DNA from: Pontibacter fetidus
Lineage (GTDB): Bacteria > Bacteroidota > Bacteroidia > Cytophagales > Hymenobacteraceae
Reading direction: 5' to 3'
DNA: 64,000 nucleotides
NCBI RefSeq assembly: GCF_010119545.1
Contig: NZ_JAAEAA010000003.1
Coordinates: forward strand, 186,001 to 250,000
Each line of letters starts with the position of its first letter. Positions within the stretch are counted from its first letter, which is position 1. A program made the position numbers and the translations under genes. Under the pieces are notes generated by a model that was not told where the DNA came from, did no database searches, and saw nothing but the letters and a program-made list of their open reading frames with translations. Shown here one piece after another: positions 27,501 through 42,752 of the stretch.

Positions 27501-27861
27501 TATAACTGAAGCCGGCAACTATACAGTAAGTGTGGTGGGTGCAGGTAACTGTGCGTCGGTTGTATCTGATGTGTTTGCGGCAACTTTACAGCCAACAGCT
27601 ATAGAAGATGAAATAGCAGCAGGTGTAGTGGTAGCGCCAAACCCGGCTCGCGGCAAATTCAGCATCACGACAGAAGAACAGTTGCAGCACGCAGAAATTG
27701 TTATCACCAACCTGTTGGGTAGTGTTGTTTACCGCACTTCAATGGCCGTGCTAAACGACAAACTTGAGGTAGATCTGAGCAAGCTTCCGGCTGGTTTATA
27801 CCTGGTGCAGTTGCAGGCTAAAAAGATCAGGTTGGTGCGTAAAGTGCTTCTGACAAAATAA
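24508..27861 (+). CDS. Secreted multidomain endonuclease I with T9SS type A tail
   Basis: 1117 residues. Signal peptide 1-20 (STLQLVAQ). Residues ~25-260 are an endonuclease I catalytic domain of the beta-beta-alpha-metal type: NCEHTVPQSWF (Glu97-His98, general base region), MRSDIHHLFPT, NSDRGSDPF and REDHKGNLARSVFYF. These enzymes cut DNA and RNA non-specifically. Fibronectin-like modules follow (two copies of NWANGSGD/NWTNGSGDGR-type repeats, about 270-500), then a Glu-rich ligand-binding-like domain, Ig/PKD-like repeats (YSWSPVAGLSDATAANP) and a terminal type A T9SS domain (VAPNPARGKFSI ... LPAGLYLVQLQ). The enzyme likely degrades extracellular DNA for nutrients or biofilm remodelling. Domain count well above the usual 300-600 residues. 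Confidence 0.9.
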   Translation: MKRILLAFSILLSATLQLVAQTAPPSNLSGEELKAWLRTNWYDGKRVVLSYDAARGKMYNYVDNYDSKVTCVYSGYQEAKPYSESNTSTSMANINCEHTVPQSWFNEVVRMRSDIHHLFPTVIQWNSDRGSDPFAEIPDNQTTKWMRGTSSQSTIPTSNIDEYSEDTNTQFEPREDHKGNLARSVFYFYTMHAGQSFDSGKGVISAVADINTLYQWHIKDPVDDRERERNRRVEIAQGNRNPYIDYPELVAKAWGLAPVNCSPATQISNLSVSQKTTSTITLNWANGSGDRRLIVVKEGSAVNFTPTGSYNGINSDFTAATDQGNGQRIVYYNSGNSVTITGLKANTTYYVQAFESCATGNTYNTTSAPTINATTPDYACTGTPTAATALASANIAQNGFTLNWTNGSGDGRIVVIRKDEAPAFVPVAGTTYNSASANYSLAASLADGSKLVYSGTGNNVAITGLQAGSLYFVKVYESCSNGNQYETAAAQTLAVTTTAASSTPVGDGNVLVMQDFNGTANDGWVVTSGFDDTKISALNTGYPDGQRLRSGKSLQITAAATAHTLELSDVNVTGKQDVYLQLYNSSVATTSGNGIENSDLFEVYVALNGADYSATPEIKITGTTTSNNIQYGMNGTATITTAAGTPVEKIFSETGALPVDKAPSILRVTIPNGTTSVKAKLVIKANSDKEIWNVDDIALLSAAATTPTDCDEFALEGHAGESKTFYTGQSVTIGAEAKEGYSYSWSPVAGLSDATAANPTLTLTTPGTYVYTVTATKNGCASTAQVTLTVQALAAPVVADVAICSGQSATLEVSNLDPVMVYNWYQSETSNIAVGRGGVYYTGQLTATRSYYVEAVNPEGIASTRTKVKVTVGGPVAVALTGPTTACAGETITYTSAVQGGVTNYTWSVPANWTIVAGAGTATITVKATGNSGNVTLNVANNCGESKTTAYAVTINEVPAKAVITQTGNQLTASTTGTTYEWKKDGITIADAKTQTITITEAGNYTVSVVGAGNCASVVSDVFAATLQPTAIEDEIAAGVVVAPNPARGKFSITTEEQLQHAEIVITNLLGSVVYRTSMAVLNDKLEVDLSKLPAGLYLVQLQAKKIRLVRKVLLTK

Positions 27862-27915: not shown

Positions 27916-28249
27916 GCGTTTATATGCTGTACGCCAGACTTTTTATACTTGCTTACCCTTTTTTGGCGTTTTTTAAGTACGTTTTGTAAATATCAAAGCT
28001 GTTGTGCAACCTTTTAGGGCATTTTGCATTAGAGGTAGGTTCGGTGGTGTGCGTATTGCCGGCAGCTAAAACTGGTGCCGGGTATAAGGCCTCCATCTGA
28101 TACTGAAGCTATACTTTTAAACTGCTTTGTGCAGCAAACGAGATGGCTCCGTAGCTACTAACCACGTACCCGGAGAGATATACCTAATGGTAGCTGGCCA
28201 TTGCAGCGCAGTGGCATAGCTGGGAGTTCACCCTTTTAAACCTGACTTG
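27916..28249. other. Intergenic region upstream of the first type B adhesin
   Basis: About 330 bases. I see no gene, no RNA fold that I can name and no clean promoter; a TACGTTTTG near 27977 is one base too long for the -7 consensus. Confidence 0.45.
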
Positions 28250-31200
28250 ATGCGCTTACCTTTATTAACGCACATTTACTGGCCCCTGCTTTTACTGTGC
28301 CTGCTGTTTTCGAAAACCGCTGTTGCCCAGACCCAGCCCGCATGCCAGGTAACTATAGATGCAGAAGGTTCATCCTCACTCTGCCAGGGCGAGTCTGTTA
28401 CCTTACGGGCTGTATCATCAAACCAGCTTTCTTCTTTCCAGTGGTTTTTAAACGGTGCGCCCCTAGCAGGCCAAACCAATGCTACCATTTCGGTAAGTAT
28501 AGCCGGGGATTATACCGTGCGGGTGTCAGGTGCGACTTGCCAGGCTGCAACGTCTACACCATTTCAGGTAACAGTAAGTCCTAGGCCGGCTAATCCCAGC
28601 TTTTTAGTAACCCCAACTACAACACAATGTGCCGGTACACCGCTTGCGTTTCAGGTAAATGCACCGCAGCCCGACATTTTTTATACCTGGATTTTTGGAG
28701 ATGGTGGTTCGGCAAAAGGCGATTCGGTAGGCCACACCTACACCGATAAAGGAATAAACTTTGCAAACTATAATGTAAAAGTAATTGCGACCAGCGCGCA
28801 GGGCTGCCAGTCCGATACCGTAACGCAGCAGGTGCGTGTAGCCCGTATGCCCGAAGCAGCTTTTGCAGATAGCTCCGATTTTCAGACCTGTTTGCCCGAT
28901 ACTATAGAAGATGACGAAATTAAGGTCTTCGCTTACATCGAAAATAAAACCGTAGAACCTTACTTATCTGATATCCGAACTTATATAGTGAACTGGGGCG
29001 ATGGGGGCCCGGATGTACAGTATACCCGCAACGAATTCCCGATCAAAAATCCCAACCCTTATACAAAAGTTGGCGACTACCCGATAACTATACGCGCTGT
29101 TGCCAGCAACGGCTGCGAGTTTGTATTTGAGCAGAACTACAATGTAAGCAAAGAACCGAAAGCCAATTTTACGCTCAGTAAGCAGCCTGCAGCAACACCA
29201 TCGTCCTGTTTGCCGGTTATAGTTGCGCTGGGTGATAGCTCTACCGGTGGCAACCTTACCTACAAATGGACTGTGCAGCCGAGTACAGGCTTTACCATAG
29301 AGTTTGGTGGCCTCGATCAGGATACCCTCTCGCTGTTATTTACTGAAAGCGGTATTTACCAGATAGAACTTATAGTTGAAAATGGCTGCGACGATGATAC
29401 CACTTCTCAATCGGTGGTTGTGGGCTGGCCACAGGTGCAGCTTCCTCCTGATACAACCTCCTGCGGGCCGATAGACTTTAAGTATACAACAGGTGCTATT
29501 CCGGGTACAGGTAACGTATTTGTAGACCCGAACCTGGGCAAAATAAAAACAGCCGTCTGGACAGTGGTAGGCCCCACAGGCGGCACCCGCACGCTCAGCG
29601 GGCAAAACCAGACCATACGCTTTACTGAAGAAGGCGTGCACGAGGTCACGCTCACCGTCGAGAACGAATGCGGCTCTTCTGAAGAACTGGCAGGTACTTT
29701 CCCGGTAGTGCAGCGGATAACGATATTGCCAATCCCCGAAGCCCCAACTATACAGGATATTACCGTTTGTAGCGGCGACTCTGTTACGCTGGAGCCAACC
29801 GGCCCGGGCGGCAACTATAACTTTTACGATGCTGCAGGAACCTTGCTCTCTACAGGGCCAAGCTATACGACCACGGGCATTACCCAAACCACCGATTTTA
29901 CGGTAGAAACAATAGGCGATAACGACTGCCCGAGTGAGCGCGTGCCGGTAAAAGTAACCGTAGTGCCGCCGCTTGCCAACAACACCATACAAGGCGACCA
30001 GAGCCTTTGCCAGGGCGATGCGCCTGCGCCCTTAACCGGCAGCACTCCTACCGGCGGTACTGGCGGCGGCTACATCTATACTTGGCTAAGCAGCACCTCT
30101 GGTCCGGATGGCGGATTTGTGCCGGCAGCGGGTGTAAACAACGATGTAAACTATACACCACAACCGTTAATCCAGCGCACCTGGTTCAGAAGACTGATAA
30201 CGGTAGCCAGCTGTTCCCCAGATACCAGTAATGCCGTGTTGGTAAACGCAGTGCCAAAGATTCAGAATAATACTATTTCGGCAGCGCAGGATATTTGCGA
30301 AGGTCAACAACCGGCTACTTTGGTAGGCACGCGTGTAACGGGCGGCGATGGTGCTGTATATGAGTTCAGATGGGAGGTAAGTACCGAAGGCCCAGGAACA
30401 GGCTTTGTGCCAGCACCTGGCAATAATACCAGCGAGAACTATAGCCCGGGTGTACTAACACAAGCTTCCTGGTTCAGGCGGGTAGTAACGTCGGCGGGTT
30501 GTGTGGTTTTCTCAGAGCCTGTGATGATCGACATTGTGCCACCATTAGATAACAATACCATTGCCTCTGCACAAACCATCTGCGCGGGCAGTACGCCGAC
30601 CCCGCTTACAGGTTCTGCGCCAACGGGCGGTTCGGGGCCGTATACTTACCTCTGGGAAAGCAGCATTACCAGTGCTACCGGTGGTTTCTCGCCGGCTGCA
30701 GGTACCAACAACGGGCAAAGCTACACACCGGGCAACTTAAAAGTAAATACTTGGTTCCGGAGAACAGTAACCTCGCAAGGCTGCGAAGCCGATGTAAGTG
30801 AAGCCATACTTATAACCGTTAACCAGGCTGTAACCAACAACAGTATTGGGGCGCCACAAACCATCTGCGCCGGCGACGTGCCGGCAGCGTTAACAGGTAC
30901 TACGCCTAACGGGGGCAGTGGCACTTATACATATCTGTGGCAAAGCAGCATTTCTGGTCCTGATTCCGGTTTTGGGTCGGCGGCCGGCACGAATACCGGT
31001 ATAAACTATACGCCACAGGCGCTTACACAAAATACGTGGTTCAGGAGAGTAGTAGATTCGCAAGGGTGTAAAACAACTTCAGAGCCTGTACTTATCACCG
31101 TAAACCCGCGGCCATCGCCACCTATACTTACCGTGAAAGATGCCACAACCTGCCCCGGAGGCTCGGCTACCTTATCTATTCAGAACCCGAACGGAGGAAT

Positions 31201-31852
31201 ATATCAATGGTTTGCCGATGCTACCGGTGGAGAGCCGGTCTTTGAGGGACCTGTGTTCCGGACTCCGAACTTAACGCAGCCAACCACCTATTATGTGGAG
31301 GCTGTTAATACCAATGGTTGCTCCAGCGCAACCCGCACCACAGTAGCTGTGCGTATTGTAGAGCCGGTAGCAGATGCAGGCCAGGATGTAACAATTATAC
31401 AAGGCAAAACCGTGGAGCTGCGGGCAACAGGTGGCGATACCTATGTTTGGGAGCCGGCTGAGAGTTTAAGCAATCCGAATGTGGCCAACCCAGTGGCCAG
31501 ACCGAACGAGACCACCACCTACCGTGTAACAGTGAGTACTGAAGAAGGCTGTACCGCTACCGATGAAGTAACTATAACTGTTATTCCGGCTATAGTTGTA
31601 CCCAACGCCTTTACCCCGAACCGCGACAACGTGAACGAAGTCTGGGAGATCCAGAACATCGAGAATTACCCGGATGTGCGTGTAGAGATATTTAACCGCT
31701 GGGGCAATATCGTGTTTACTTCCAATGGCTACGGTACCCCCTGGGATGGCACTCTGAACGGCGAAGACCTGCCGGTGGCAACTTACTACTACATGATTTA
31801 CCTTAACAAGTCAGAGAAACCTATCTCGGGCAACGTTACCATTATCCGATAA
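28250..31852 (+). CDS. Large PKD-containing adhesin with T9SS type B (gliding-motility) tail
   Basis: 1200 residues from the ATG at 28250 (TTG just before is less likely). Signal peptide ends at about residue 27 (TAVAQ). An Ig-like domain comes first (SLCQGESVTLRAV ... SFQWFLNGAPL), then PKD domains (FYTWIFGDGGSAKGDSVGH and TYKWTVQPSTG). Four tandem ~95-residue repeats at about 570-955 share NNTI, TPxGG, W-S/Q-S-S, GFxPAAGTN and TWFRRxVTSxGC. Another Ig-like domain precedes the C-terminal ~90 residues, VPNAFTPNRDNVNEVWEI ... RWGNIVF ... NGEDLPVATYYY, a T9SS type B/CHU_C domain. It is followed by a PorP/SprF gene 2 bases later, its probable export/anchor partner. Surface adhesin by inference. 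Confidence 0.9.
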   Translation: MRLPLLTHIYWPLLLLCLLFSKTAVAQTQPACQVTIDAEGSSSLCQGESVTLRAVSSNQLSSFQWFLNGAPLAGQTNATISVSIAGDYTVRVSGATCQAATSTPFQVTVSPRPANPSFLVTPTTTQCAGTPLAFQVNAPQPDIFYTWIFGDGGSAKGDSVGHTYTDKGINFANYNVKVIATSAQGCQSDTVTQQVRVARMPEAAFADSSDFQTCLPDTIEDDEIKVFAYIENKTVEPYLSDIRTYIVNWGDGGPDVQYTRNEFPIKNPNPYTKVGDYPITIRAVASNGCEFVFEQNYNVSKEPKANFTLSKQPAATPSSCLPVIVALGDSSTGGNLTYKWTVQPSTGFTIEFGGLDQDTLSLLFTESGIYQIELIVENGCDDDTTSQSVVVGWPQVQLPPDTTSCGPIDFKYTTGAIPGTGNVFVDPNLGKIKTAVWTVVGPTGGTRTLSGQNQTIRFTEEGVHEVTLTVENECGSSEELAGTFPVVQRITILPIPEAPTIQDITVCSGDSVTLEPTGPGGNYNFYDAAGTLLSTGPSYTTTGITQTTDFTVETIGDNDCPSERVPVKVTVVPPLANNTIQGDQSLCQGDAPAPLTGSTPTGGTGGGYIYTWLSSTSGPDGGFVPAAGVNNDVNYTPQPLIQRTWFRRLITVASCSPDTSNAVLVNAVPKIQNNTISAAQDICEGQQPATLVGTRVTGGDGAVYEFRWEVSTEGPGTGFVPAPGNNTSENYSPGVLTQASWFRRVVTSAGCVVFSEPVMIDIVPPLDNNTIASAQTICAGSTPTPLTGSAPTGGSGPYTYLWESSITSATGGFSPAAGTNNGQSYTPGNLKVNTWFRRTVTSQGCEADVSEAILITVNQAVTNNSIGAPQTICAGDVPAALTGTTPNGGSGTYTYLWQSSISGPDSGFGSAAGTNTGINYTPQALTQNTWFRRVVDSQGCKTTSEPVLITVNPRPSPPILTVKDATTCPGGSATLSIQNPNGGIYQWFADATGGEPVFEGPVFRTPNLTQPTTYYVEAVNTNGCSSATRTTVAVRIVEPVADAGQDVTIIQGKTVELRATGGDTYVWEPAESLSNPNVANPVARPNETTTYRVTVSTEEGCTATDEVTITVIPAIVVPNAFTPNRDNVNEVWEIQNIENYPDVRVEIFNRWGNIVFTSNGYGTPWDGTLNGEDLPVATYYYMIYLNKSEKPISGNVTIIR

Positions 31853-31854
31853 CT

Positions 31855-32826
31855 ATGAAAAGGCCATACCTATACCTGCTGATACTTTTTTGGGTGGTTT
31901 GTGTGCAGGCAGCTTTTGCACAGCAGCGGCCACAGTATAGCCAGTACATGCTCAACAATTTTATACTTAACCCCGCCATTACAGGTATAGAAGATTACGC
32001 CGATATACGCGTGAGCAACAGGCGGCAGTGGGTTGGCTTAGATGGTGCCCCGGTTACGTATTACCTTACAGCACATACGCCCCTTAATAAAGGCATGGGC
32101 AGTACACAGTACCACCGGGCCCTTGCCCACCACGGTATAGGCGCCACCTTCCATACCGACAAAACCGGGCCGCTGCGCCGCACAGGTGTTAACTTTGCCT
32201 ATGCCTATCATCTGCCGCTTACCAATGTTATCAATCTTTCGGGGGGAGCTTCGGTGGGTATTATCCGCAATGCTATAAATGCCAACGACCTGGAGTTTGG
32301 GAATGGAAAAGGTAACGACCCTTTGGTAGGAGGCGGAACGCTAAACAACAACATATTAGACCTGAACCTGGGGCTTTGGCTTTATTCCCGCAATTTTTCG
32401 GTGGGCGTGGCCGGGGCGCAACTTTTGGAGAATGTAGGCAGCTTTAGTGCTGCCGAAGAGGAACGTGCCGCCATGGACCTGCAACGCCATTATTTTGCCA
32501 CAGCCAGCTACCGTTTCGAACCTACCTCTACCCTGGATGTGATACCTTCTGTAATGGTGAAACTGGCCGACCCGAGTCCTACGTCGGTAGATGTAAGTTT
32601 GCGCACTATTTACGATGAACGGTTCTGGATAGGGGCCGCGTACCGCCATAACGATGCTATAATTGGGATGGTAGGAGTTTATGTCAGCCCGTTGATTGAT
32701 GTGTCGTACTCTTACGATGCCACCACCTCAAACCTAAATAAAGTTAGCGCAGGCACACACGAAGTGGTCATTGGGTTTAAACTGCTTAACGACAGGGGTA
32801 TACTTTGTCCGCAATGGATATGGTAG
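31855..32826 (+). CDS. PorP/SprF-type T9SS outer-membrane protein (copy 1)
   Basis: 323 residues. Signal peptide to about residue 22 (VQAAFAQQ). The N-terminal mature signature RPQYSQYMLNNFILNPAITGIEDY is the PorP/SprF hallmark, with later barrel strands and a final KVSAGTHEVVIGFKL segment. Such proteins capture the type B signal of a specific T9SS substrate and hold it at the surface. The start lies 2 bases after the stop of the 1200-residue adhesin gene, which fits a dedicated substrate/partner pair. A terminator follows, so this two-gene unit is separate from the next. Confidence 0.93.
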   Translation: MKRPYLYLLILFWVVCVQAAFAQQRPQYSQYMLNNFILNPAITGIEDYADIRVSNRRQWVGLDGAPVTYYLTAHTPLNKGMGSTQYHRALAHHGIGATFHTDKTGPLRRTGVNFAYAYHLPLTNVINLSGGASVGIIRNAINANDLEFGNGKGNDPLVGGGTLNNNILDLNLGLWLYSRNFSVGVAGAQLLENVGSFSAAEEERAAMDLQRHYFATASYRFEPTSTLDVIPSVMVKLADPSPTSVDVSLRTIYDERFWIGAAYRHNDAIIGMVGVYVSPLIDVSYSYDATTSNLNKVSAGTHEVVIGFKLLNDRGILCPQWIW

Positions 32827-33301: not shown

Positions 33302-36300
33302 ATGGGGAGCTTAGTAAAGAAGTTACTGCTGTTTACGGTGGTCTTCTTCAGTGTATTTGCCAGTGCTATGGCGCAGGGGCTTTCCCTGGGTTCTGCTGCT
33401 GCGTTTAATTTGTTGGCCAGTCAGAAGGTAATAAACAAAGGCAGCACTATAGTTCAGGGCAATGTGGGTGTTGGTACCGGGGCAGTTATCTCCGGTTTTG
33501 CAGCCGGAAGTATAAAAGGCCAGCAGCACATCAACGACGCAGTAGCACTTAACGCACTTTCAGATCTTTCCGCAGCTTATACTACTTATTTCCAGCGAGC
33601 AGCCACCAGGGTGCTTCCGGCCACCATCGGCAACGAGACTTTTACAGCAGGCGTTTATAAATTTAATGCGGCAGGCACTATCACTGGCTCCGTCGTGCTG
33701 GACGCCAATTACGACCCAAATGCTACATTCATATTTCAAGTAAGTAAAAGCCTGCAGGTAAACGCGAATATCACCATTGCGCTTATAAACGGGGCAAAAG
33801 TAAACAACGTGCTTTGGCTGGTTGCCGAAGATGCCGTTATCGGGCAGGGTGCTTACATGAAGGGCAATATAGTTGCCAACAACAACATTACGCTACAGGA
33901 TGATGCCGCGGTGCTTGGCCGGGTAATGAGCATTAAAAATACCGTAAATCTGAGCAACAGCATTCTGTCGTTGCCAACCGACCTTAGCATTATAAAAACC
34001 AAAGTAGCCGATTCTCCTTCCCAGAAATATGCTGTCGGTGACCTGGTTACCTATAAAATTGAAGCCAGGAACCTGGGCCCGATAGATGACGAGGGCGTGA
34101 TGATACGCGATGTGCTGCCTGCGGGCTTAAGCTACGTTTCGTCTACAACCACCAAAACCGGCACATACTACGACCCTTCTTTCGGCCTCTGGATAATAGA
34201 TCAGCTTAAAGTGGGCGAGGTGCAGTCGCTGACTATAACGGCCCGCGCTACTATGGCTGGCTATATTGTGAACACCGCAACTATAGCAGGCACTACCGTA
34301 GACGAAAACCTGAACAACAATAAATCGGATGCAGACCTGTGCGTGGTGCTTTCGGATGCCGGGCAGATACAAGGCCCTGTAGCCGCCTGTGCCGGCAGTA
34401 CCAACACCTATAACATTAAGCAGATAGCCGGTGCCACCTATACCTGGACCGTTCCATCGGATTGGGTAATAACAGCCGGAAACAGAAACTCATCTGAGAT
34501 AACAGTAAAAGTTGGAAATACATCTGGGTCCATATCGGTAACAGTTAACAATATTTGTGGTGCTAGCCCACCCAGCAGGCTTACCGTAGAGGTAGTGCAG
34601 GATGTACCGCCAAAGCCAGGCCCTATAAATGGTACGCTGGAACTTTGCTCTGGTAAAGCTACCACCTATAGTATAGCCCCTGTAGCAGGAGCCATTGGCT
34701 ACCACTGGACCCTGCCTGCCGGCTGGACCATGGTAAGCGATAACGGCACATCGATAACCGTAACTACAGACGGCGACGCCACCACAAAACGCCTTAGCGT
34801 AGCAGCCTATAATATGTGCGGCGACGGACAACCAAGCTTTTTAGATGTAACACCGGTGCTTAAAGTGCCAAATACACCCGGGGCCATTAGTGGCCCTTCT
34901 GCCGTTTGTGCTACCGTAGCAACCGCCACCTATAGTATTGGTAAAGTAGCCAATGCCAGCAGTTATACCTGGACGGTGCCCACTGGTTGGACCATCCTTA
35001 GCGGACAAGGCACATCAACTATAACCGTAAAGCCAACTGCACAGGCCGGAGACATTACTGTAAAAGCAATTAACGACTGCGGCGAAAGCACAGCACAGAA
35101 ATTAACAGTAACTCCTGTCGAGAATCCTCCGCTGGCTCCGGACGCAATTAAAGGTCCGGATGTGGTTTGTGCCAGCACAGCGGGCAATGTGTATAGTATA
35201 GATGCCGTACCAAATGCAAAAGGCTATAACTGGTCGGTGCCAACCGGCTGGACAATTGTTTCTGGGCAGAACACGCCAACTATAACGGTTACGGCCGGTA
35301 CCGGTAATGGCAAAATAACAGTAGTAGCTTTAAACGATTGCGGCTCTAACGGAAGCAGCTCCAAAGATGTACAGGTAACCAGCGGGCCTCCTGCGGCTCC
35401 GTCAGCTATAAAAGGTACGCCATACGGTTGTGCCACCCAAACAGCTACCTATACTATTGACCCGGTAGCGGGTGCACAAAGTTATACATGGGCAGTACCA
35501 GCAGGTTGGTCTATCGTTTCAGGGCAGGGCACAACAACTATAACCGTAAAAGTAGGTTCTGGCGCAGGTACGATCTCAGTAAAAGCAAAAGGCACCTGCG
35601 GCGAAGGCCCGGCCCGCACTCTGAACGTGCAGCCGCAAGTAACCTTACCAACTGCACCAGCTGCCATTACAGGACCTGCCGAAGTTTGTAAGAGCCAGAC
35701 TGACCTAACCTATAGTGTTGCTGCTATTACAGGCGTAACAAGCTATACCTGGTCGGTGCCAACAGGCTGGGTAATTGTGAGTGGGCAAGGCACTACAATT
35801 ATAAAAGTAACAGCAGGCACAACTAACGGTAACATATCGGTAACAGCAACTAACGATTGCGGCACCAGCTCAGCCACTACCTTACCCGTAAAAGTATCTA
35901 CAGAAGCTCCTGCCACACCGGGCCCTATCTCAGGGCTTGCAACGGTTTGCGGCAACCAGGCAGGTGTAACCTATAGTATCGCTGCCGTTGCAGGGGCAAC
36001 CTCTTATACCTGGAGTGTTCCGGGCTGGACTATTGTTTCTGGTCAGGGTACGACAACTATAACCGTAAATGCGGCAACAACCAACACAACTATAACCGTA
36101 ACTGCCAAGAATGCCTGCGGCAACACAAGCAGCACTACAAAGCCAGTACAGGTAACTACAGCAGTTCCGGCAGCGCCAACTGCTATAAAAGGAACACCTT
36201 ACGGTTGCACCACACAAACGGCTACCTATACAATTGATGCGGTAGCAGGAGCTGAAAGTTACACATGGGCTATACCAAATGGTTGGACAATTGTTTCAGG

Positions 36301-39300
36301 ACAGGGTACCACCAGCATCAACGTAAAAGTAGGCTCAGGATCAGGTACGATTTCGGTAAAAGCAAAAGGCCCGTGCGGCGAAGGCCCTGCGACAACACTT
36401 ACCGTACAACCTCAGGTAACTTTGCCTGCAACTCCTGCAACTATAACAGGCCCTGCAGAAGTGTGCAAGAGCCAAACCGGTTTAACTTATAGTGTGGCTC
36501 CTATAGCAGGTGTTACCACATATACCTGGGCAGTACCAACCGGCTGGACAATAACCGGAGGACAGGGCACTACAACTATAACGGTTACAGCAGGCACAAC
36601 AAACGGAAATGTAAGTGTAACCGCTACCAACGATTGCGGCACGAGCAACGCCCAGACCAAACCAGTAACTGTATCAACGGCAGTACCAGCTAACCCGGGC
36701 ACTATAAACGGAGTAGCAACGGCATGTTCAAACCAATCAAACTTAACTTATAGTATAGCTGCAGTTGCAGGTGCCACCTCCTACGAATGGACCGGCCCAG
36801 GCTGGACAATTGTAAGCGGCCAGGGCACGACAACTATAACCGTAGCAGCAGGCACAGCTAACACAACTATAACTGTAATCGCTAAAAATGCCTGCGGCAA
36901 TGCCAGCAGCAGCACCAAAGCAGTACAGATAACCAACACCCTTCCGGCAGCACCTACAGCTATAAAAGGAACACCTTATGGTTGCGCTACTCAGACAGCT
37001 ACCTATTCGATCGACCCGGTGGCGGGTGCGCAGGGCTATACCTGGGCAGTGCCGGCAGGCTGGTCTATTATAAGCGGCCAGGGCACAACAAGTATAACTG
37101 TAAAAGTAAGCTCAGAACCAGGCACCATATCAGTAAAAGCAAAAGGCGGTTGCGGCGACGGACCAGCTACTACGTTAAATGTGCAGCCACAGGTAACCTT
37201 GCCAACTGCACCAGCAACTATAACCGGTCCCGATGAGGTTTGTAAAGCACAGACTGATCTTACCTATAGTGTAGCAGCCATCACGGGCGTGACAAGCTAT
37301 ACCTGGTCGGTGCCAAGCGGCTGGGTAATTGTAAGCGGACAGGGTACTACTTCCATTAAAGTAAATGCAGGCACTACTAACGGGAACATCTCGGTAACAG
37401 CTACCAACGATTGCGGTACCAGTGCAGCCAAAACTATGGCCGTAAAAGTATCTACAGATATACCGGCCACTCCGGGAGCTATTACCGGTCCGGCTACTGT
37501 TTGCGGAGGCCAGGCAAGTATAACCTATAGCATTGCTGCCGTTCAGGGGGCAACATCCTATACCTGGAGCGCACCAGGCTGGACTATTGTTTCGGGGCAG
37601 GGCACTACAAGCATCACGGTAAATTCGGGCAACACCGGAACAACCATTTCGGTTATCGCGAAGAATGCCTGCGGCAACACAAGTGCTGCGCAGATAGCGG
37701 CAGTTGTAACACAATCGATTCCAGCCAAACCGGGAACTATAACCGGAACTACAGCTGCCTGCGTGGGCAAAGACCAAACTTATACTGTGCCGGTTGTAGC
37801 AGGCGCCACCAGCTATACCTGGGCTGTGCCAACCGGCTGGAGCATCGTATCGCAGAACAATAACAGCATTGTAGTAAAAACAGGAACAACAGCAGGCAAC
37901 ATCAGCGTAACAGCTACAAACGGTTGTGGTACCGGCCCTGCATCAACATTAGCAGTAAGCCCTATAACCGGAGCCATCTCTGGTATAACCGGCATAAGCG
38001 GCAATACTACTACGTGTACGACAGGCAATATAACCTTTACCGTACCAGCAGGCACAAACGTGTCGGGTTATAGTTGGGAAGTACCGGCTGGCTGGGCTAT
38101 TGTTTCGGGGCAGGGCACCACACAGGTAACCGTAAAGGCAGGTGCTACATCCGGAACTATAAAACTGACAGCCTCTAACGATTGCGGTGCTGTAACAGTA
38201 ACCAAACAGGTGGAGGTAAACACAACGGTACCGGCTACCCCGGGCGCTATAACCGGCAACGCAAGCGCCTGTTCGGGCAGCACACAAAAGTATAGCATTG
38301 CACCTGTAAGCGGCGCGGTAAGCTATACCTGGTCGGTGCCGCAGGGCTGGACTATAACAGCAGGGCAGGGAACGACAACGATTGATGTGAAGGCCGGAAC
38401 TACCACAGGCCAAGTTACAGTAACAGCCACCAACGATTGCGGAAGCAGCAGCTCATCATCAACTAAAACCATAACCATAACAAGCAGCGCACCTGTGGCA
38501 GGAAACATTGCCGGGCCAACTGCGCTTTGTAACACAACTACCGGACTGGTTTACAGCATAACACAGGTAAGTGGCGCAACAGCTTATACCTGGGCTGTGC
38601 CGCAAGGCTGGACTATTGTTTCTGGTCAGGGTACTACAAGCATCACTGTAAATGCCGGTGCCAATGGCGGGGAGATAAAAGTAGCTGCAGAAAATGCCTG
38701 CGGTAAAGGAGCTAACAGCGCATTGGCAGTAAGCACAGCTGCGCCACTGGCCGCACCGGGCCCGATAGCCGGTAACATGGATGCCTGCAGCTCGATACCA
38801 ACCACTATTTATAGTATAGATGCCGTGCCGGGCGCGACGGGCTATGCATGGGAAGTGCCGCTTGGCTGGACGCTGATAGCCGGACAGGGATCTACAACAA
38901 TAACGGTTGGCGTAACCAGCGCTCCGGGCACTATAAAAGTAAAAGCAGTAAACGCCTGTAGCCAGAGCACCTTTACCACACTAAATGTAAACCCGGTAGC
39001 AAACACACCATTAAAGCCGGCAACTATAACAGGTCCTAACGAAGCATGCATCGGGCGCAATGTGGTTTACAGCGTGGCTGCCATTCCGGAGGCCTCATCT
39101 TACACCTGGATAGTACCGGCAACCTGGCAGATCATAACGGGGCAGGGCACAAACCACATCACGGTTATGGCAGGTCCGTTGAGCGGTACAGTGGAGGTAA
39201 TGGCCAACAACGGTTGTGGCTCCAGTGCAACCACCAAAATTCAGGTACGGGCTGTAGAAATGGGCTCGATTGGTGAGATAAAAGACCTGAGCTCGCCATG

Positions 39301-39775
39301 CGATGGATTGAAATACATGGTGGACCCTGTAGTGGGAGCTACCTCATATACCTGGACGCTGCCGGACGGCTGGACTATAATTGCCGGCGAGGGGACCAAC
39401 ATTATTATGGTAAACGCCGGTAAATGGGACGGAACTATAAGTGTGGTAGCTGATAACGGAACCTGCGGCACAGTACCTTCAACTATAAAGTCAGACAAAT
39501 CGAAGGCCGAGACCCTGATCGAATTCCCGAATGTGTTCTCACCGAACAACGATGGCAACCACGATACCTGGGTTATCTCCAGCCTCGAAAGATTCCCGGA
39601 TAACGACATTACTATCCTGAACAGGTGGGGTACCGAAGTATTTAAAGCAAAATCATACAAAAATAACTGGACCGGTGATAACTTAGCGGAAGGCACTTAC
39701 TACTATGTAGCGCGCGTGAGGTTATGCGATGGCACCGACAGGACGCTTAAAGGTTACGTGATGATTGTAAGATAA
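33302..39775 (+). CDS. Giant DUF3494 (ice-binding-like) adhesin with 20 Ig-like repeats and T9SS type B tail
   Basis: 2157 residues. Signal peptide 1-24. Residues ~25-225 are a DUF3494/ice-binding-like beta-helix domain: SAAAFNLLASQKVINKG, VQGNVGVGTGAVISGF, FIFQVSKSLQVNANITI, NNVLWLVAEDAVIG and NIVANNNITL are all family-like. Residues ~230-345 are a DUF11 domain (YKIEARNLGPIDDEGV). About 350-2070 comprise 20 Ig/PKD-like repeats of ~86 residues with the pattern YTW-x-V-P-x-GW-x-IVSGQGTT-x-ITV ... NDCG. The last ~85 residues (FPNVFSPNNDGNHDTW ... NRWGTEVF) are a type B T9SS domain. Three supermodules of exactly 777 bp are repeated at 35405-37735. A PorP/SprF gene follows after 20 bases. Likely a long surface filament with an ice- or surface-binding tip. 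Confidence 0.9.
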   Translation: MGSLVKKLLLFTVVFFSVFASAMAQGLSLGSAAAFNLLASQKVINKGSTIVQGNVGVGTGAVISGFAAGSIKGQQHINDAVALNALSDLSAAYTTYFQRAATRVLPATIGNETFTAGVYKFNAAGTITGSVVLDANYDPNATFIFQVSKSLQVNANITIALINGAKVNNVLWLVAEDAVIGQGAYMKGNIVANNNITLQDDAAVLGRVMSIKNTVNLSNSILSLPTDLSIIKTKVADSPSQKYAVGDLVTYKIEARNLGPIDDEGVMIRDVLPAGLSYVSSTTTKTGTYYDPSFGLWIIDQLKVGEVQSLTITARATMAGYIVNTATIAGTTVDENLNNNKSDADLCVVLSDAGQIQGPVAACAGSTNTYNIKQIAGATYTWTVPSDWVITAGNRNSSEITVKVGNTSGSISVTVNNICGASPPSRLTVEVVQDVPPKPGPINGTLELCSGKATTYSIAPVAGAIGYHWTLPAGWTMVSDNGTSITVTTDGDATTKRLSVAAYNMCGDGQPSFLDVTPVLKVPNTPGAISGPSAVCATVATATYSIGKVANASSYTWTVPTGWTILSGQGTSTITVKPTAQAGDITVKAINDCGESTAQKLTVTPVENPPLAPDAIKGPDVVCASTAGNVYSIDAVPNAKGYNWSVPTGWTIVSGQNTPTITVTAGTGNGKITVVALNDCGSNGSSSKDVQVTSGPPAAPSAIKGTPYGCATQTATYTIDPVAGAQSYTWAVPAGWSIVSGQGTTTITVKVGSGAGTISVKAKGTCGEGPARTLNVQPQVTLPTAPAAITGPAEVCKSQTDLTYSVAAITGVTSYTWSVPTGWVIVSGQGTTIIKVTAGTTNGNISVTATNDCGTSSATTLPVKVSTEAPATPGPISGLATVCGNQAGVTYSIAAVAGATSYTWSVPGWTIVSGQGTTTITVNAATTNTTITVTAKNACGNTSSTTKPVQVTTAVPAAPTAIKGTPYGCTTQTATYTIDAVAGAESYTWAIPNGWTIVSGQGTTSINVKVGSGSGTISVKAKGPCGEGPATTLTVQPQVTLPATPATITGPAEVCKSQTGLTYSVAPIAGVTTYTWAVPTGWTITGGQGTTTITVTAGTTNGNVSVTATNDCGTSNAQTKPVTVSTAVPANPGTINGVATACSNQSNLTYSIAAVAGATSYEWTGPGWTIVSGQGTTTITVAAGTANTTITVIAKNACGNASSSTKAVQITNTLPAAPTAIKGTPYGCATQTATYSIDPVAGAQGYTWAVPAGWSIISGQGTTSITVKVSSEPGTISVKAKGGCGDGPATTLNVQPQVTLPTAPATITGPDEVCKAQTDLTYSVAAITGVTSYTWSVPSGWVIVSGQGTTSIKVNAGTTNGNISVTATNDCGTSAAKTMAVKVSTDIPATPGAITGPATVCGGQASITYSIAAVQGATSYTWSAPGWTIVSGQGTTSITVNSGNTGTTISVIAKNACGNTSAAQIAAVVTQSIPAKPGTITGTTAACVGKDQTYTVPVVAGATSYTWAVPTGWSIVSQNNNSIVVKTGTTAGNISVTATNGCGTGPASTLAVSPITGAISGITGISGNTTTCTTGNITFTVPAGTNVSGYSWEVPAGWAIVSGQGTTQVTVKAGATSGTIKLTASNDCGAVTVTKQVEVNTTVPATPGAITGNASACSGSTQKYSIAPVSGAVSYTWSVPQGWTITAGQGTTTIDVKAGTTTGQVTVTATNDCGSSSSSSTKTITITSSAPVAGNIAGPTALCNTTTGLVYSITQVSGATAYTWAVPQGWTIVSGQGTTSITVNAGANGGEIKVAAENACGKGANSALAVSTAAPLAAPGPIAGNMDACSSIPTTIYSIDAVPGATGYAWEVPLGWTLIAGQGSTTITVGVTSAPGTIKVKAVNACSQSTFTTLNVNPVANTPLKPATITGPNEACIGRNVVYSVAAIPEASSYTWIVPATWQIITGQGTNHITVMAGPLSGTVEVMANNGCGSSATTKIQVRAVEMGSIGEIKDLSSPCDGLKYMVDPVVGATSYTWTLPDGWTIIAGEGTNIIMVNAGKWDGTISVVADNGTCGTVPSTIKSDKSKAETLIEFPNVFSPNNDGNHDTWVISSLERFPDNDITILNRWGTEVFKAKSYKNNWTGDNLAEGTYYYVARVRLCDGTDRTLKGYVMIVR
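35405..37735 (+). repeat. Three tandem 777-bp supermodules inside the giant adhesin gene
   Basis: The codons for AIKGTPYGC begin at 35405, 36182 and 36959, exactly 777 bases apart; the third block ends at 37735. Each supermodule is three Ig-like units (about 86 residues each) in the same order: an AIKGTPYGC unit, an ITGPAEVCK/ITGPDEVCK unit and a VCGNQ/CSNQ-type unit with the shortened PGWTIVSGQGTT core. Confidence 0.88.
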
Positions 39776-39795: not shown

Positions 39796-40755
39796 ATGAA
39801 AACAAAACTACCCTATTTACTTACCTTACTCGTTGCATTGGTTGTGCAGGAGGCCACCGCACAGCAGGCCCCGCAATACACCCAGTACATTTTTAACGAG
39901 CTGGTAATTAACCCGGGCTACTCAGGTAGTAAAGACATCGTAAACGTAAATGCTACTTACCGCACCCAATGGACCGGCCTCGAAGGAGCCCCTACCACGC
40001 AAACTATAAGTGTAGACGGCCCCGCTAAAGATGCACGCATAGGATGGGGAGCCCATCTGATAAACGATGTGGCCGGGGCGCAATCGCAGACCGGGGCTTA
40101 TGCCAACATAGCTATGCGCATTAATACCAGCCGCACCTCGCAGTTATCACTAGGCATAGCCGGTGGCATTTCGCAGTATACCCTGGATGGCACCAAATTC
40201 AGAAAAGGCGACGACACACCCGATACAGCGATCCCTGAAAACCGCGAATCGCAGATACTGCCAGATGCCAAGATTGGGATGTTCTTTAACACAGAGCGCT
40301 TTTATACAGGCTTATCTATTGCCAACCTGGTGCCTTTTAAGGATGACAAAACTATAATTGCGACACCGCGCCGGCATTACTTCCTCTCTTCGGGGTACAT
40401 GTTTGACCTGGGGCCATGGGTGCGCCTGAAACCTAGTTTCCTCTGGAAAGAAGACTTTAAAGGCCCTGCCAACCTGGACCTGAATGCTTTTTTGCTGCTT
40501 TATAACCGTGTATGGCTGGGGGGCTCTTACCGCACTGCTGTGCCCGTTTTTACGGATGTGAAAATGGATGATATAAAAAAGCGGAATGCCTGGGCAGCGC
40601 TGGTACAGGTATATGCGACACCTAAGTTCAGGATCGGTTATTCGTATGATGTAAGCCTTACAAAACTGCGCGATTATTCCTCGCATGAAGTATCTTTGGG
40701 CTATTCTTTCTTCAAAAAACAAAACGGCCGTACCATTACGCCGCGTAACTTATGA
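39796..40755 (+). CDS. PorP/SprF-type T9SS outer-membrane protein (copy 2)
   Basis: 319 residues with signal peptide (VVQEATAQQ). The mature N-terminus has APQYTQYIFNELVINPGYSG, the PorP/SprF signature also seen in copy 1 (QYSQYMLNNFILNPAITG); the overall identity with copy 1 is modest, so it is a diverged partner. It starts 20 bases after the giant adhesin and its TGA overlaps the ATG of the next gene (ATGATG at 40752), tying it to both neighbours in one operon. Likely the anchor for the giant adhesin. Confidence 0.93.
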   Translation: MKTKLPYLLTLLVALVVQEATAQQAPQYTQYIFNELVINPGYSGSKDIVNVNATYRTQWTGLEGAPTTQTISVDGPAKDARIGWGAHLINDVAGAQSQTGAYANIAMRINTSRTSQLSLGIAGGISQYTLDGTKFRKGDDTPDTAIPENRESQILPDAKIGMFFNTERFYTGLSIANLVPFKDDKTIIATPRRHYFLSSGYMFDLGPWVRLKPSFLWKEDFKGPANLDLNAFLLLYNRVWLGGSYRTAVPVFTDVKMDDIKKRNAWAALVQVYATPKFRIGYSYDVSLTKLRDYSSHEVSLGYSFFKKQNGRTITPRNL

Positions 40756-42752
40756 TGCACCCTTTTACCCTTAAAAACTGCCTGTCAGCTATCCTGTTAT
40801 GTGTTGTGTTGAGCTTCGCGTTTCAGGTAAAAGCACAGGATACCCAACAGGCCGATAAACACTTTAACGAGTTTGAATTCAGCCTGGCCCTGGACGAGTA
40901 CAAAGCCATACTTGACCAGGGAGAGCCGAGCTTAAATGTAGTGCAGCGCATTGCAGATATCTACCGCATCTTAAACAATAGCAAAGAGGCAGAGTTCTGG
41001 TACGCCCAGGTAATTACGTTTGCCGGCGCCGATCCGTCGGTTTACTATTTATATGCCGAGTCGGCGAAGCGAAACGGGAACTATGCCAAGGCAAAGCAAC
41101 TGTTTATGGAGTATAGCCGCCGCGTGCCGGGGCAGGCAGCGTTGGCGCAGCGCATGGCCGCCTCCTGCGATACGTCGATGAAGTGGATGCGCAACCCCAA
41201 GCCTTACCGAATAAAAAAAGTAAATAACCTGAACTCCAAAGGTGTTGATTTTAGCCCGTTTAAAGCAAAAGACGGTGTATACTTTGCCTCTGACCGCCTG
41301 GAAGGCAACACTAAGGAAAAAGTGGAGCAATACGCCTGGACGGGCAACGGCTACATCCAGATGTACTTTGCACCTGCCAAATCCGATACCTCGTGGGGCG
41401 CACCAGAAATATTGCCATCAGCTATAAACACACGTTACCACAACGGTCCGGGTGTATTTCACGAAAAAGATAAGGCGCTATACTTTACCCGAACCCACGC
41501 TGTACGCCGCGAAGTGAAAAAAAACAGCGACCCTACCAGCTGGTTCCAGGGTACGGAGGGCGGCACACACATAAACCGGCTTGGCATATATATAGCTGCT
41601 AAAAAGGGGAATAAATGGAAAAAGGTAAAAGCATTTAAGTATAACAAAACCGAAGAATACTCGATTGGCCACCCCGCCATAACCGAAGATGGCAACACCC
41701 TGTACTTTGTGTCGGATATGCCCGGCGGCTTTGGCGAAACTGATATATACTATAGCGAACGACAGCCAAACGGCGAATGGGGCCAGCCTATAAATGCAGG
41801 TAATAAAGTTAACACGGCCGGCCGCGAAAGTTTCCCGAGTTTAGGTGCTGATGGGGTGTTATACTTTTCGTCGGACGGGCACATGGGCATGGGCGGCCTG
41901 GACCTGTTTAAAGCGGTAGGTACACACAAAGCCTGGACCGGAGTTGAGAACCTGAAATACCCGTTCAATACCTCGCACGATGACCTAGGCTTTGAAATGG
42001 ACGCAAACGGCAAAACCGGCCTGATCTCGTCTGGCAGATTTTCGGAGGAGGGTTATGATGATATTTTGTCATTTGTAGAGAATCGCATCCCGTGCACTAT
42101 AACAGGTAAAACGATAGAGTATGTGGCGGATAGCCAGAATCGTGGAAAGAAGAAAGAGATGGCGGTTGGCAATGTAAGGCTTACGGTTACCGAAGTTGGC
42201 AGCGATGCCCGTCCTATTGAGGTGATCTCAAACGCTGATGGTACTTTTATGCTGCCGGTATATGGCGGAATGACCTATACCATTCGTGGTTCCAAACCAA
42301 ACTACCTGACACAAACTATAACTGTGCCAGCAGACTGCCGCAAAACCGAAGACTCAGTGCGAGTAGAGATGGTGTTTAACCGCGATACCCCTAACAAACC
42401 AATCGTGCTGGAAAATATCTACTACGACCTGGACAAGTACGATCTGACACCGCAGGCAGCTGCTGAGTTGGATAAACTGGTGCAGACTCTGAAAGATAAC
42501 CCACATATCCGCATAGAGCTTAGCTCGCATACCGATAGCCGACAGACCAACTACTATAACCAGATGTTGTCGGAACTGAGAGCCAAATCGGCGGTAGATT
42601 ACCTGGTAGCAAAAGGCATAGAGCGCAGCCGCGTAGAAGCCAAAGGCTACGGCGAAACCCAGCTGATAAACAAATGTGCAGATGGGGTATCGTGTTCAGA
42701 AGACATGCACCAGGAAAACCGCCGTACCGAATTTAAGATACTGGCACGCTAA
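40752..42752 (+). CDS. PorE-like protein: TPR, propeller, CRD and OmpA domains
   Basis: 666 residues. Signal peptide to about residue 28 (FQVKAQ). Residues ~30-130 have TPR-like helices (NEFEFSLALDEYKAIL). About 145-430 is a PD40-type propeller with repeats of the form SPFKAKDGVYFASDR, GHPAITEDGNTLYFVSDMPGG and SFPSLGADGVLYFSSDG. A carboxypeptidase-regulatory-like segment spans ~446-545, and an OmpA domain ~553-666 (NIYYDLDKYDLTPQA, SSHTDSRQTNYYNQ). This TPR/propeller/CRD/OmpA order matches PorE, the peptidoglycan anchor of the T9SS trans-envelope complex, but there is no lipobox. Start overlaps the stop of the PorP/SprF gene by 4 bases. Ends in a strong terminator. Confidence 0.86.
   Translation: MMHPFTLKNCLSAILLCVVLSFAFQVKAQDTQQADKHFNEFEFSLALDEYKAILDQGEPSLNVVQRIADIYRILNNSKEAEFWYAQVITFAGADPSVYYLYAESAKRNGNYAKAKQLFMEYSRRVPGQAALAQRMAASCDTSMKWMRNPKPYRIKKVNNLNSKGVDFSPFKAKDGVYFASDRLEGNTKEKVEQYAWTGNGYIQMYFAPAKSDTSWGAPEILPSAINTRYHNGPGVFHEKDKALYFTRTHAVRREVKKNSDPTSWFQGTEGGTHINRLGIYIAAKKGNKWKKVKAFKYNKTEEYSIGHPAITEDGNTLYFVSDMPGGFGETDIYYSERQPNGEWGQPINAGNKVNTAGRESFPSLGADGVLYFSSDGHMGMGGLDLFKAVGTHKAWTGVENLKYPFNTSHDDLGFEMDANGKTGLISSGRFSEEGYDDILSFVENRIPCTITGKTIEYVADSQNRGKKKEMAVGNVRLTVTEVGSDARPIEVISNADGTFMLPVYGGMTYTIRGSKPNYLTQTITVPADCRKTEDSVRVEMVFNRDTPNKPIVLENIYYDLDKYDLTPQAAAELDKLVQTLKDNPHIRIELSSHTDSRQTNYYNQMLSELRAKSAVDYLVAKGIERSRVEAKGYGETQLINKCADGVSCSEDMHQENRRTEFKILAR

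Follow-up and report, generated by a model that had tools for sequence, protein, structure and literature searches.

Species of the genus Pontibacter have been described from desert soil, salterns, sediment and similar habitats (PMC4511580, PMC12281811). Why does one of them carry an ice-binding-like domain at the end of a very long surface protein? The question is raised by a locus of Pontibacter fetidus in contig NZ_JAAEAA010000003.1 (assembly GCF_010119545.1; genome size 4.07 Mb), positions 186,001 to 250,000 of the forward strand. This whole stretch of 64,000 nucleotides is called the window here, and all coordinates refer to it. The open reading frame 33302-39775 of the plus strand starts with ATG and encodes 2157 residues, in which a DUF3494 domain is followed by a DUF11 domain, 20 immunoglobulin (Ig)-like domains and a type B C-terminal signal of the type IX secretion system (T9SS). 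We consider it probable that this protein is a cell-wall-anchored fibrillar adhesin that uses a repurposed ice-binding fold as a tip for a ligand other than ice.

Domain architecture and predicted fold of the tip

The original prediction, made from the sequence alone, was of a surface protein joining an ice-binding-like domain, DUF11, 20 Ig-like repeats and a type B T9SS tail, and the Pfam, NCBIfam and repeat searches agree on this composition. The order of the domains, together with the TIGR04131/CHU_C match, likewise bears out that DUF3494 lies distally, on a long stalk, in a T9SS type B protein. The parts of the protein are the following:

33302..33376, plus strand: signal peptide, residues 1-25, ending AMAQ (sequence, by eye)
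33374..33985, plus strand: predicted DUF3494 (Ice_binding) beta-solenoid tip, residues 25-228 (Pfam, AlphaFold2, structure match to 7bwx)
33980..34336, plus strand: DUF11, residues 227-345 (Pfam, 95 bits)
34358..39484, plus strand: stalk of 20 PKD_6 Ig-like domains, residues 353-2061 (Pfam and repeat search)
35375..37702, plus strand: three copies of a three-domain unit ABC, R5-R13, residues 692-1467 (repeat identities)
39518..39766, plus strand: type B T9SS C-terminal signal, CHU_C/TIGR04131 (Pfam, NCBIfam)

PF11999 (Ice_binding, DUF3494) matched residues 38-220 with 137 bits, well above the curated cut-off of 28.7, and in a search with the tip it scored 144.5 bits over profile positions 2-205 of 208. 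DUF11 (PF01345) was found at the residues listed, PKD_6 (PF19408) in 20 stretches of the 2157-residue chain with 1670 bits in total, and CHU_C (PF13585) at the C-terminus (residues 2073-2155, 84 bits; the type B tail as a whole, 2073-2156), where the NCBIfam type B sorting domain TIGR04131 scored 47.2 bits (cut-off 35). The independent repeat search also gave 20 repeats, from R1 (residues 353-429) to R20 (1994-2061), with a spacing of 79-91 residues. In each of them a Cys lies close to either end, which suggests one disulphide per stalk domain. An Ig-like domain is about 4 nm long, and with 20 of them the tip would stand off the cell by perhaps 80 nm. The N-terminus, MGSLVKKLLLFTVVFFSVFASAMAQ, was judged by eye to be a Sec signal peptide; Q25, with which it ends, is invariant across 12 aligned relatives. 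Since seven genomes of the genus, the source genome included, keep the 20-domain protein together with identical neighbour genes, this architecture is not due to chance. The nearest named relatives are from an uncultured Pontibacter, with 75% identity in residues 1-346, from P. populi (75%) and from P. burrus (64%), followed by Adhaeribacter, Rufibacter and Botryobacter.

The AlphaFold2 model of the tip, built from 37 sequences, reached a mean predicted local distance difference test (pLDDT) value of 96.2 and showed a helix (residues 57-74) lying along a three-faced beta-solenoid. In the comparison by Foldseek and VIA-align, the top 25 entries were all DUF3494 (Z 28.8-35.2) and the next fold, a pilin, scored Z 13.9. 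AnpIBP (7bwx) was matched with Z 35.2 and a root mean square deviation (rmsd) of 1.1 A over 201 residues at 36% identity, FfIBP with Z 31.9 and SfIBP_1 (6bg8) with Z 28.8. The tip is predicted to be a true DUF3494 beta-solenoid; the structure prediction that had been proposed as a check placed DUF3494 entries, and not an unrelated fold, at the head of the match list. Searched against Pfam at E values up to 10, the tip gave besides Ice_binding only sub-threshold matches to Bactofilin (16.3 bits, cut-off 27.9) and Peptidase_S58 (11.3 bits, cut-off 23.9). PF20597, described as an ice-binding-like adhesive family in PMC12337378, was not among these matches at E ≤10, which does not exclude it.

Proteins of this general kind are already known. 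Fibrillar adhesin-like proteins combine an adhesive domain, a tandem stalk and an anchor; Ice_binding and CHU_C are listed in a published survey of them, and PKD_6 was built there (PMC8286594). PF11999 is read as ice-binding wherever it turns up, including the survey's list of adhesive domains, in which it is assigned to ice (PMC8286594). The protein studied here, with Ice_binding, 20 PKD_6 and CHU_C, belongs to this kind by its domain composition. Pontibacter, Hymenobacter and Rufibacter are absent from the main text of the survey, and in the open-licence literature on ice-binding with type IX secretion, or on Pontibacter with ice-binding, no description of this protein was found. AnpIBP1a of Antarctomyces psychrotrophicus (7BWX) and other DUF3494 ice-binding proteins share the beta-solenoid; ice-binding proteins are typically small and soluble (PMC5014055), whereas in the present protein the DUF3494 domain sits on top of a stalk of 20 domains that ends in a T9SS tail, and has few small residues on the b-face.

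Distribution, ice-binding face and divergence of the tip

DUF3494 was detected in 50/50 genomes of the genus, 99/200 of the family sample, 53/291 of the order sample and 47/395 of the phylum sample, the samples overlapping. The stalked form is present in all 50 Pontibacter genomes. Class A, to which the studied gene belongs, is present in 42 of them, at a syntenic locus that also has two PorP genes, and class B, a stalked paralogue, occurs in all 50; the classes were assigned by domain counts (class A: a single DUF11 with 11 or more PKD_6), and the PorP clades described below bear them out. The class B paralogue of the source genome (contig C8, L032:6146-12319) is 1079 residues long and consists of DUF3494, two DUF11, six PKD_6 and a type B tail, followed by PorP/SprF and OmpA genes. 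A further, short DUF3494 protein (L004-L014) was found in 11/50 genomes, in frames of 470-586 residues with the domain C-terminal and a small-residue b-face; these short proteins are patchy in occurrence, perhaps through recent transfer, and are candidates for true ice-binding proteins.

The long loci analysed with their flanks numbered 127: every long locus of the genus was included, 94 counting the studied one and some of these in duplicate, and others were selected from the family. Twelve duplicates and L189, which is cut by a contig end and shows no stalk, tail or neighbours, were dropped, and a CHU_C-tailed stalk with PorP and OmpA neighbours was found at all 114 remaining distinct loci. 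Contrary to the expectation that it would be uncommon, this architecture occurs commonly in the GTDB family sampled, Hymenobacteraceae, and its adhesive, stalk and anchor domains all figure in the fibrillar-adhesin survey (PMC8286594). Outside the family, frames of at least 1000 residues form a minority of the DUF3494 matches listed: one of 1002 residues, and partial or weak matches in frames of 1509-2053 residues, in the order sample, and frames of 1077, 1171, 1217, 1225, 1255, 1369 and 1439 residues in the phylum sample. Two variants were also seen. In L138, L141, L159-L161, L163-L166, L168, L102, L112, L180-L182 and L185 (class B or Rufibacter-code) DUF11 is expanded (4-11 copies) and not PKD_6, and L086 and L092, loci of metagenome-assembled Bacteroidetes genomes, have four and eight tandem DUF3494 domains.

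The b-face is the ice-binding face of DUF3494 proteins: the AnpIBP exchanges S153Y and T156Y reduce activity to 17% (PMC7277481), and T20 and A214 of TisAFP7 belong to the ice-binding site (PMC7966756). We compared 21 outward b-face positions, i.e. columns 1, 2 and 4 of seven rungs, with the strands taken from the DSSP assignment of the model and from the AnpIBP mutants; these columns agree with the FfIBP repeat motif T-A/G-X-T/N (PMC7277481) and with the TisAFP7 mutants. Ala, Gly, Ser and Thr were counted as small, and a row was kept only if it covered at least 14 of the 21 positions (one row, in the group of other stalked proteins, was lost in this way). The small-residue share of the tip of the 2157-residue protein was 0.38. 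This is below every solved DUF3494 domain (mean 0.77, range 0.52-0.95 in 10 rows, which stand for fewer independent proteins, since 4nu3 and 7ehk are one protein and 9lhs, 9li0 and 9lhr come from one genus) and below every classic short homologue (mean 0.74, range 0.62-0.86, 20 rows). The mean was 0.81 in the 11 short proteins of the same genus, 0.86 in other taxa (44 rows) and 0.79 in four short proteins of the family with genus codes labelled Hymenobacter, an inferred name. Stalked proteins gave 0.40 in the clade of the studied protein (7 rows), 0.49 in the other class A proteins of the genus (range 0.25-0.80; 35), 0.46 in class B (50), 0.53 in stalked Adhaeribacter and Rufibacter (12) and 0.50 in other stalked proteins (9). 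Charged residues made up 0.23-0.28 of the b-face in the three stalked groups of the genus versus 0.04-0.07 in the non-stalked groups, with 0.11 in stalked Adhaeribacter and Rufibacter and 0.17 in the other stalked proteins. In the alignments, S153 and T156 of AnpIBP correspond to Glu176 and Val179 of the studied tip. Judged on the modelled face, the tip has probably lost the small-residue surface that typically grips ice.

The tip is also one of the fastest-changing parts of the locus. At the 42 syntenic loci, mean pairwise identity was 41.5% for the tip and 41.4% for DUF11, and 70.2% for the tail, 65.2% for the OmpA protein and 66.3% and 74.9% for the two PorP proteins. In the 11 genomes holding all three proteins, the short DUF3494 proteins were 94.0% identical, whereas class A tips were 40.2% and class B tips 43.5% identical, a contrast that is no pure measure of constraint because the short proteins may be recent acquisitions. 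Within the outward b-face the mean pairwise identities (0.30 in class A, 0.37 in class B, 0.31 in classic proteins and other taxa taken together) are uninformative on constraint. As far as sequences can tell, the rapid divergence fits changing targets better than ice, although relaxed constraint would look alike. In our reading the solenoid would be a fast-diverging adhesive tip for another ligand, such as a glycan, a mineral or a neighbouring cell.

Several observations weigh against this reading. SfIBP_1 (6bg8), a hyperactive ice binder (PMC7966756), has in the same test only 0.52 small and as many as 0.19 charged residues, and a small-residue b-face is thus a typical and not a strictly defining feature of ice binders. 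The charged share of the studied tip, 0.19 (4/21), equals the highest solved rows (SfIBP_1 and 9lhr, 0.19; the others 0-0.10) and therefore lies within the solved range, only the small share being below it; the test accordingly separates groups, not every single protein. The group ranges overlap, with single class A tips reaching 0.80 small residues, and four Adhaeribacter tips (L048, L049, L174, L177) are mild, at 0.62-0.67 small and 0-0.05 charged. Our mapping of the face is not reconciled with the statement in PMC12337378 that column 2 of SfIBP holds alanines only. Finally, DUF11 diverges as fast as DUF3494, so the divergence of the tip need not be driven by a ligand.

The tip might, alternatively, hold the cell on ice or in frozen soil water, with T9SS as the export route. 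The models for such an adhesin are SfIBP_1 of Shewanella frigidimarina (6BG8), which is also a DUF3494 protein, and MpIBP of Marinomonas primoryensis, the ice-binding domain of which we take not to be DUF3494. Neither, to our knowledge, has a T9SS tail or a PorP partner. The 17-repeat form of the present family is carried by Rufibacter ruber and R. roseus, which are presumably Antarctic isolates, and this would favour ice, as would the predicted true DUF3494 fold nearest to proven ice binders and the low score of SfIBP_1 in our own face test, with the charged share of the studied tip inside the solved range. In both model proteins Ig-like repeats hold the ice-binding domain off the cell, which is described in PMC9957290 as a way of holding cells to ice; the sea-ice data of that source itself give minimal evidence for it. 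However, the small-residue share of the tip lies below all solved and classic short rows, in contrast to the short DUF3494 proteins of this genus, in which it is retained, tip identity at one syntenic locus is only about 41%, and the stalked form is universal in a genus with habitats such as desert soil and saltern, three species of which, not necessarily among the 50 genomes, are described as growing at 20-35 C (PMC4511580, PMC12281811). We therefore regard attachment to ice as rather unlikely. Adaptation to an icy habitat was also set aside as a general reason for the gene, the stalk being in 50/50 genomes and the short protein with the intact face patchy (11/50) and 94% identical. Of the original wording, binding to ice or another surface, the first half is disfavoured by the few small face residues, the core presence in a genus of desert, saltern and sediment habitats and the fast tip, and the second half is favoured.

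Export and anchoring

The repurposed adhesin we favour would need a route to the surface and an anchor there, and the genes next to it are consistent with both:

39796..40755, plus strand: PorP/SprF-family outer-membrane protein (PF11751, 248 bits; TIGR03519, 259 bits, cut-off 90.55)
40752..42752, plus strand: TPR-PD40-OmpA protein of the PorE/CHU_0125 type (OmpA PF00691; sub-cut-off NCBIfam matches)
28247..31852, plus strand: upstream neighbour, a second type B (CHU_C) protein with Ig_7 and PKD domains (Pfam, NCBIfam)
31855..32826, plus strand: PorP/SprF partner of the upstream type B neighbour (Pfam, NCBIfam, PorP clade)

The PorP/SprF gene begins 20 bases 3' of the adhesin gene and is overlapped by 4 bases by the PorE-like OmpA gene. 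The source genome contains SprA (2443 bits), the T9SS core component searched for, 11 type B tails above the cut-off and nine PorP/SprF genes. Tail, adjacent PorP/SprF and SprA together support the assignment of the protein as a T9SS type B substrate. In the PorP trees each group formed one clean clade: 42 class A downstream proteins (support 98), 50 of class B (91), 42 of the upstream neighbour (100) and 12 of Adhaeribacter and Rufibacter (72), as expected if each PorP stays with its own substrate. A PorP of the upstream neighbour's clade lies upstream of 42/42 class A genes of the genus. The type B tails of class B similarly formed one clade of 50 (support 100) and those of Adhaeribacter and Rufibacter one of 12 (83).

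Type B substrates pair specifically with PorP/SprF shuttles, and an operonic PorE homologue is proposed to make a static anchor, whereas mobile substrates such as SprB are described without one (PMC12618676). PorE, PorP and the type B protein form a complex, and SprF binds SprB (PMC9143113). The same arrangement of a type B substrate, PorP/SprF and PorE or its homologue is found in Fjoh_3952-3951-3950 of F. johnsoniae and in PG1035-PorP-PorE of P. gingivalis, for which a static wall anchor is proposed (PMC12618676, PMC9143113); PG1035 is of no known function according to PMC12618676. The cassette as such is already known. Because of the PorP pairing, the operonic PorE-like gene, the published PorE-PorP-type B complex and the presence of SprA, static anchoring in the wall is by analogy the likeliest arrangement here. 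The adhesin would leave the cell via Sec and then the T9SS translocon, its type B tail would be taken over by the adjacent PorP/SprF protein, and this protein, together with the PorE-like OmpA protein from that run of genes, would fix it statically to outer membrane and peptidoglycan. To the counter-evidence given above the cassette adds that the OmpA protein stays below the NCBIfam cut-offs (CHU_0125, 440 bits against 620; PorE NF052230, 391 against 600) and can be called only PorE-like, and that the class A tails are not one clean clade, 36/42 being together (support 76).

The protein might instead be a mobile adhesin of the SprB kind, moved by the gliding motor: a PorP-like protein binds SprB, itself a type B substrate (PMC9143113), and SprA, the one gliding gene searched for, is present. 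In F. johnsoniae, however, the mobile type B substrates are described without operonic PorE-like genes and the static one with such a gene (PMC12618676), and here a PorE-like gene overlaps PorP. We give this explanation little credence and retain static anchoring.

Three further places in the window were noted. The second type B protein and its own PorP/SprF (28247-32826) have no OmpA/PorE-like gene directly after them, and by the F. johnsoniae rule this protein could be a mobile rather than a static adhesin. The gene at 24508-27861 lies beside the type B genes and probably encodes a secreted nuclease: its 1117-residue product combines Endonuclease_1, Ig_7 and PKD_6 with a type A T9SS tail. 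On the minus strand, 55422-57224 is an open reading frame of 600 residues which adjoins a DUF4175 protein and gave no Pfam match at 1e-8.

Stalk length and steps of three

Within the stalk, R5-R13 are three copies of the unit ABC: equivalent domains (lags 3 and 6) share 66-88% amino acid identity and the others 47-62%. The model of the first copy (pLDDT 92.3, predicted template modelling score 0.64) makes the single domains firm and their mutual arrangement not. Its best structural matches were fragments of GhpA (Z up to 12.1, rmsd 11.7 over 247 residues), little above titin, fibronectin and other Ig-like chains, and GhpA was also the only PDB sequence match at E ≤0.01 (E 0.0014, weak). The three-domain spacing of the GhpA matches was not counted, since tiling with a three-domain profile gives such a spacing. 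GhpA, the grappling hook protein A of Aureispira sp. CCB-QB1 (9FLP, 9FLY), has 5898 residues and another function; the match to it points to no more than relatedness of the Ig-like stalk domains.

Among the 54 class A rows, of which 42 are from the genus and 12 from Adhaeribacter and Rufibacter, 16 have 11 repeats, 24 have 14, five have 17 and nine have 20. Changes were counted by parsimony on one FastTree tree of PorP, OmpA and tail, tip and stalk being left out. All six changes inferred in class A and six of the ten in class B were multiples of three, i.e. 12/16 together versus one third expected with a free step size (binomial p 8e-4, which is rough and rests on a crude null). The tip tree recovered the same six class A changes and gave 5/8 for class B; when four Rufibacter-code proteins with 15 and 18 repeats were added to class A, a further three changes appeared, of which one was a multiple of three, for a total of 7/9. 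Near pairs show the block itself: repeats 7-9 of L041 are missing in L042, 6-8 of L044 in L107 and 5-7 of L039 in L152, while L110 versus L041 and L105 versus L097 differ by a three-domain block and a one-domain shift. Only near pairs were used, since mapping single repeats of the studied protein onto 14- and 11-repeat proteins of distant species was noisy, and so was mapping L049, L174 and L050 onto L048. Lag-3 similarity is prominent in separate lineages (the studied clade; L049 and L174 of Adhaeribacter; L039; and L105 of class B); lag 6, itself a multiple of three, apart, other lags are prominent in fewer proteins. Misassembly is unlikely to explain the pattern, because several class A counts come from one- or two-contig assemblies (20 in G083; 14 in G071, G049, G129 and G087; 11 in G002).

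Stalk length thus seems to vary, for the most part, by three beads at a time, and unequal recombination in register, or a structural register of the fibre, possibly lies behind this. Period three as a general law was rejected: four of the ten class B changes are not multiples, the two 33-repeat proteins have their strongest lag at 2 and a 50-repeat protein shows no clear period. These giant relatives (L170, L171 and L186) have 33, 33 and 50 PKD_6 repeats in 3193, 3204 and 4781 residues, and the 33-repeat form occurs in two genomes without class A.

Periscope proteins also carry an adhesion domain on a tandem array of varying length (PMC8201768, PMC9704523); here, by contrast, the lengths differ between species, with one genome per species, and mostly by three domains. 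The variation could mean that length is what matters and that the solenoid is a cap without a specific ligand, the protein acting as a spacer or steric regulator as in masking periscope proteins. Steric masking is described for SasG (PMC9210967), and the equal pace at which cap and DUF11 diverge would suit such a role. Yet a stalked DUF3494 solenoid kept in 50/50 genomes seems more than a mere cap needs, and we find a spacer without a ligand hard to credit.

We return to an adhesin with a tip for a non-ice ligand. What is new is the case for an "ice-binding" domain that has probably acquired a different ligand throughout a mesophilic genus, and a stalk changing mainly in threes. The two may be joined, but this we put forward only tentatively: an antifreeze fold would have become the fast-diversifying tip of a core fibre of the genus, and three-domain modules would keep the fibre in register, with its length quantised in units of about 258 residues. 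Within this tentative joint reading, the register kept by changes of three may concern the orientation of the tip or the packing of the fibre.

If the tip does bind something other than ice, the label "ice-binding" would plainly mislead for a stalked form that a whole genus from warm, dry places shares and whose face is atypical. Stalked and short DUF3494 proteins in the same genomes would provide a matched pair for finding the residues that make the fold bind ice. Should the steps of three hold, the length of the stalk would not be free to change by single beads, which would bear on how such fibres are built and how their length is measured out.

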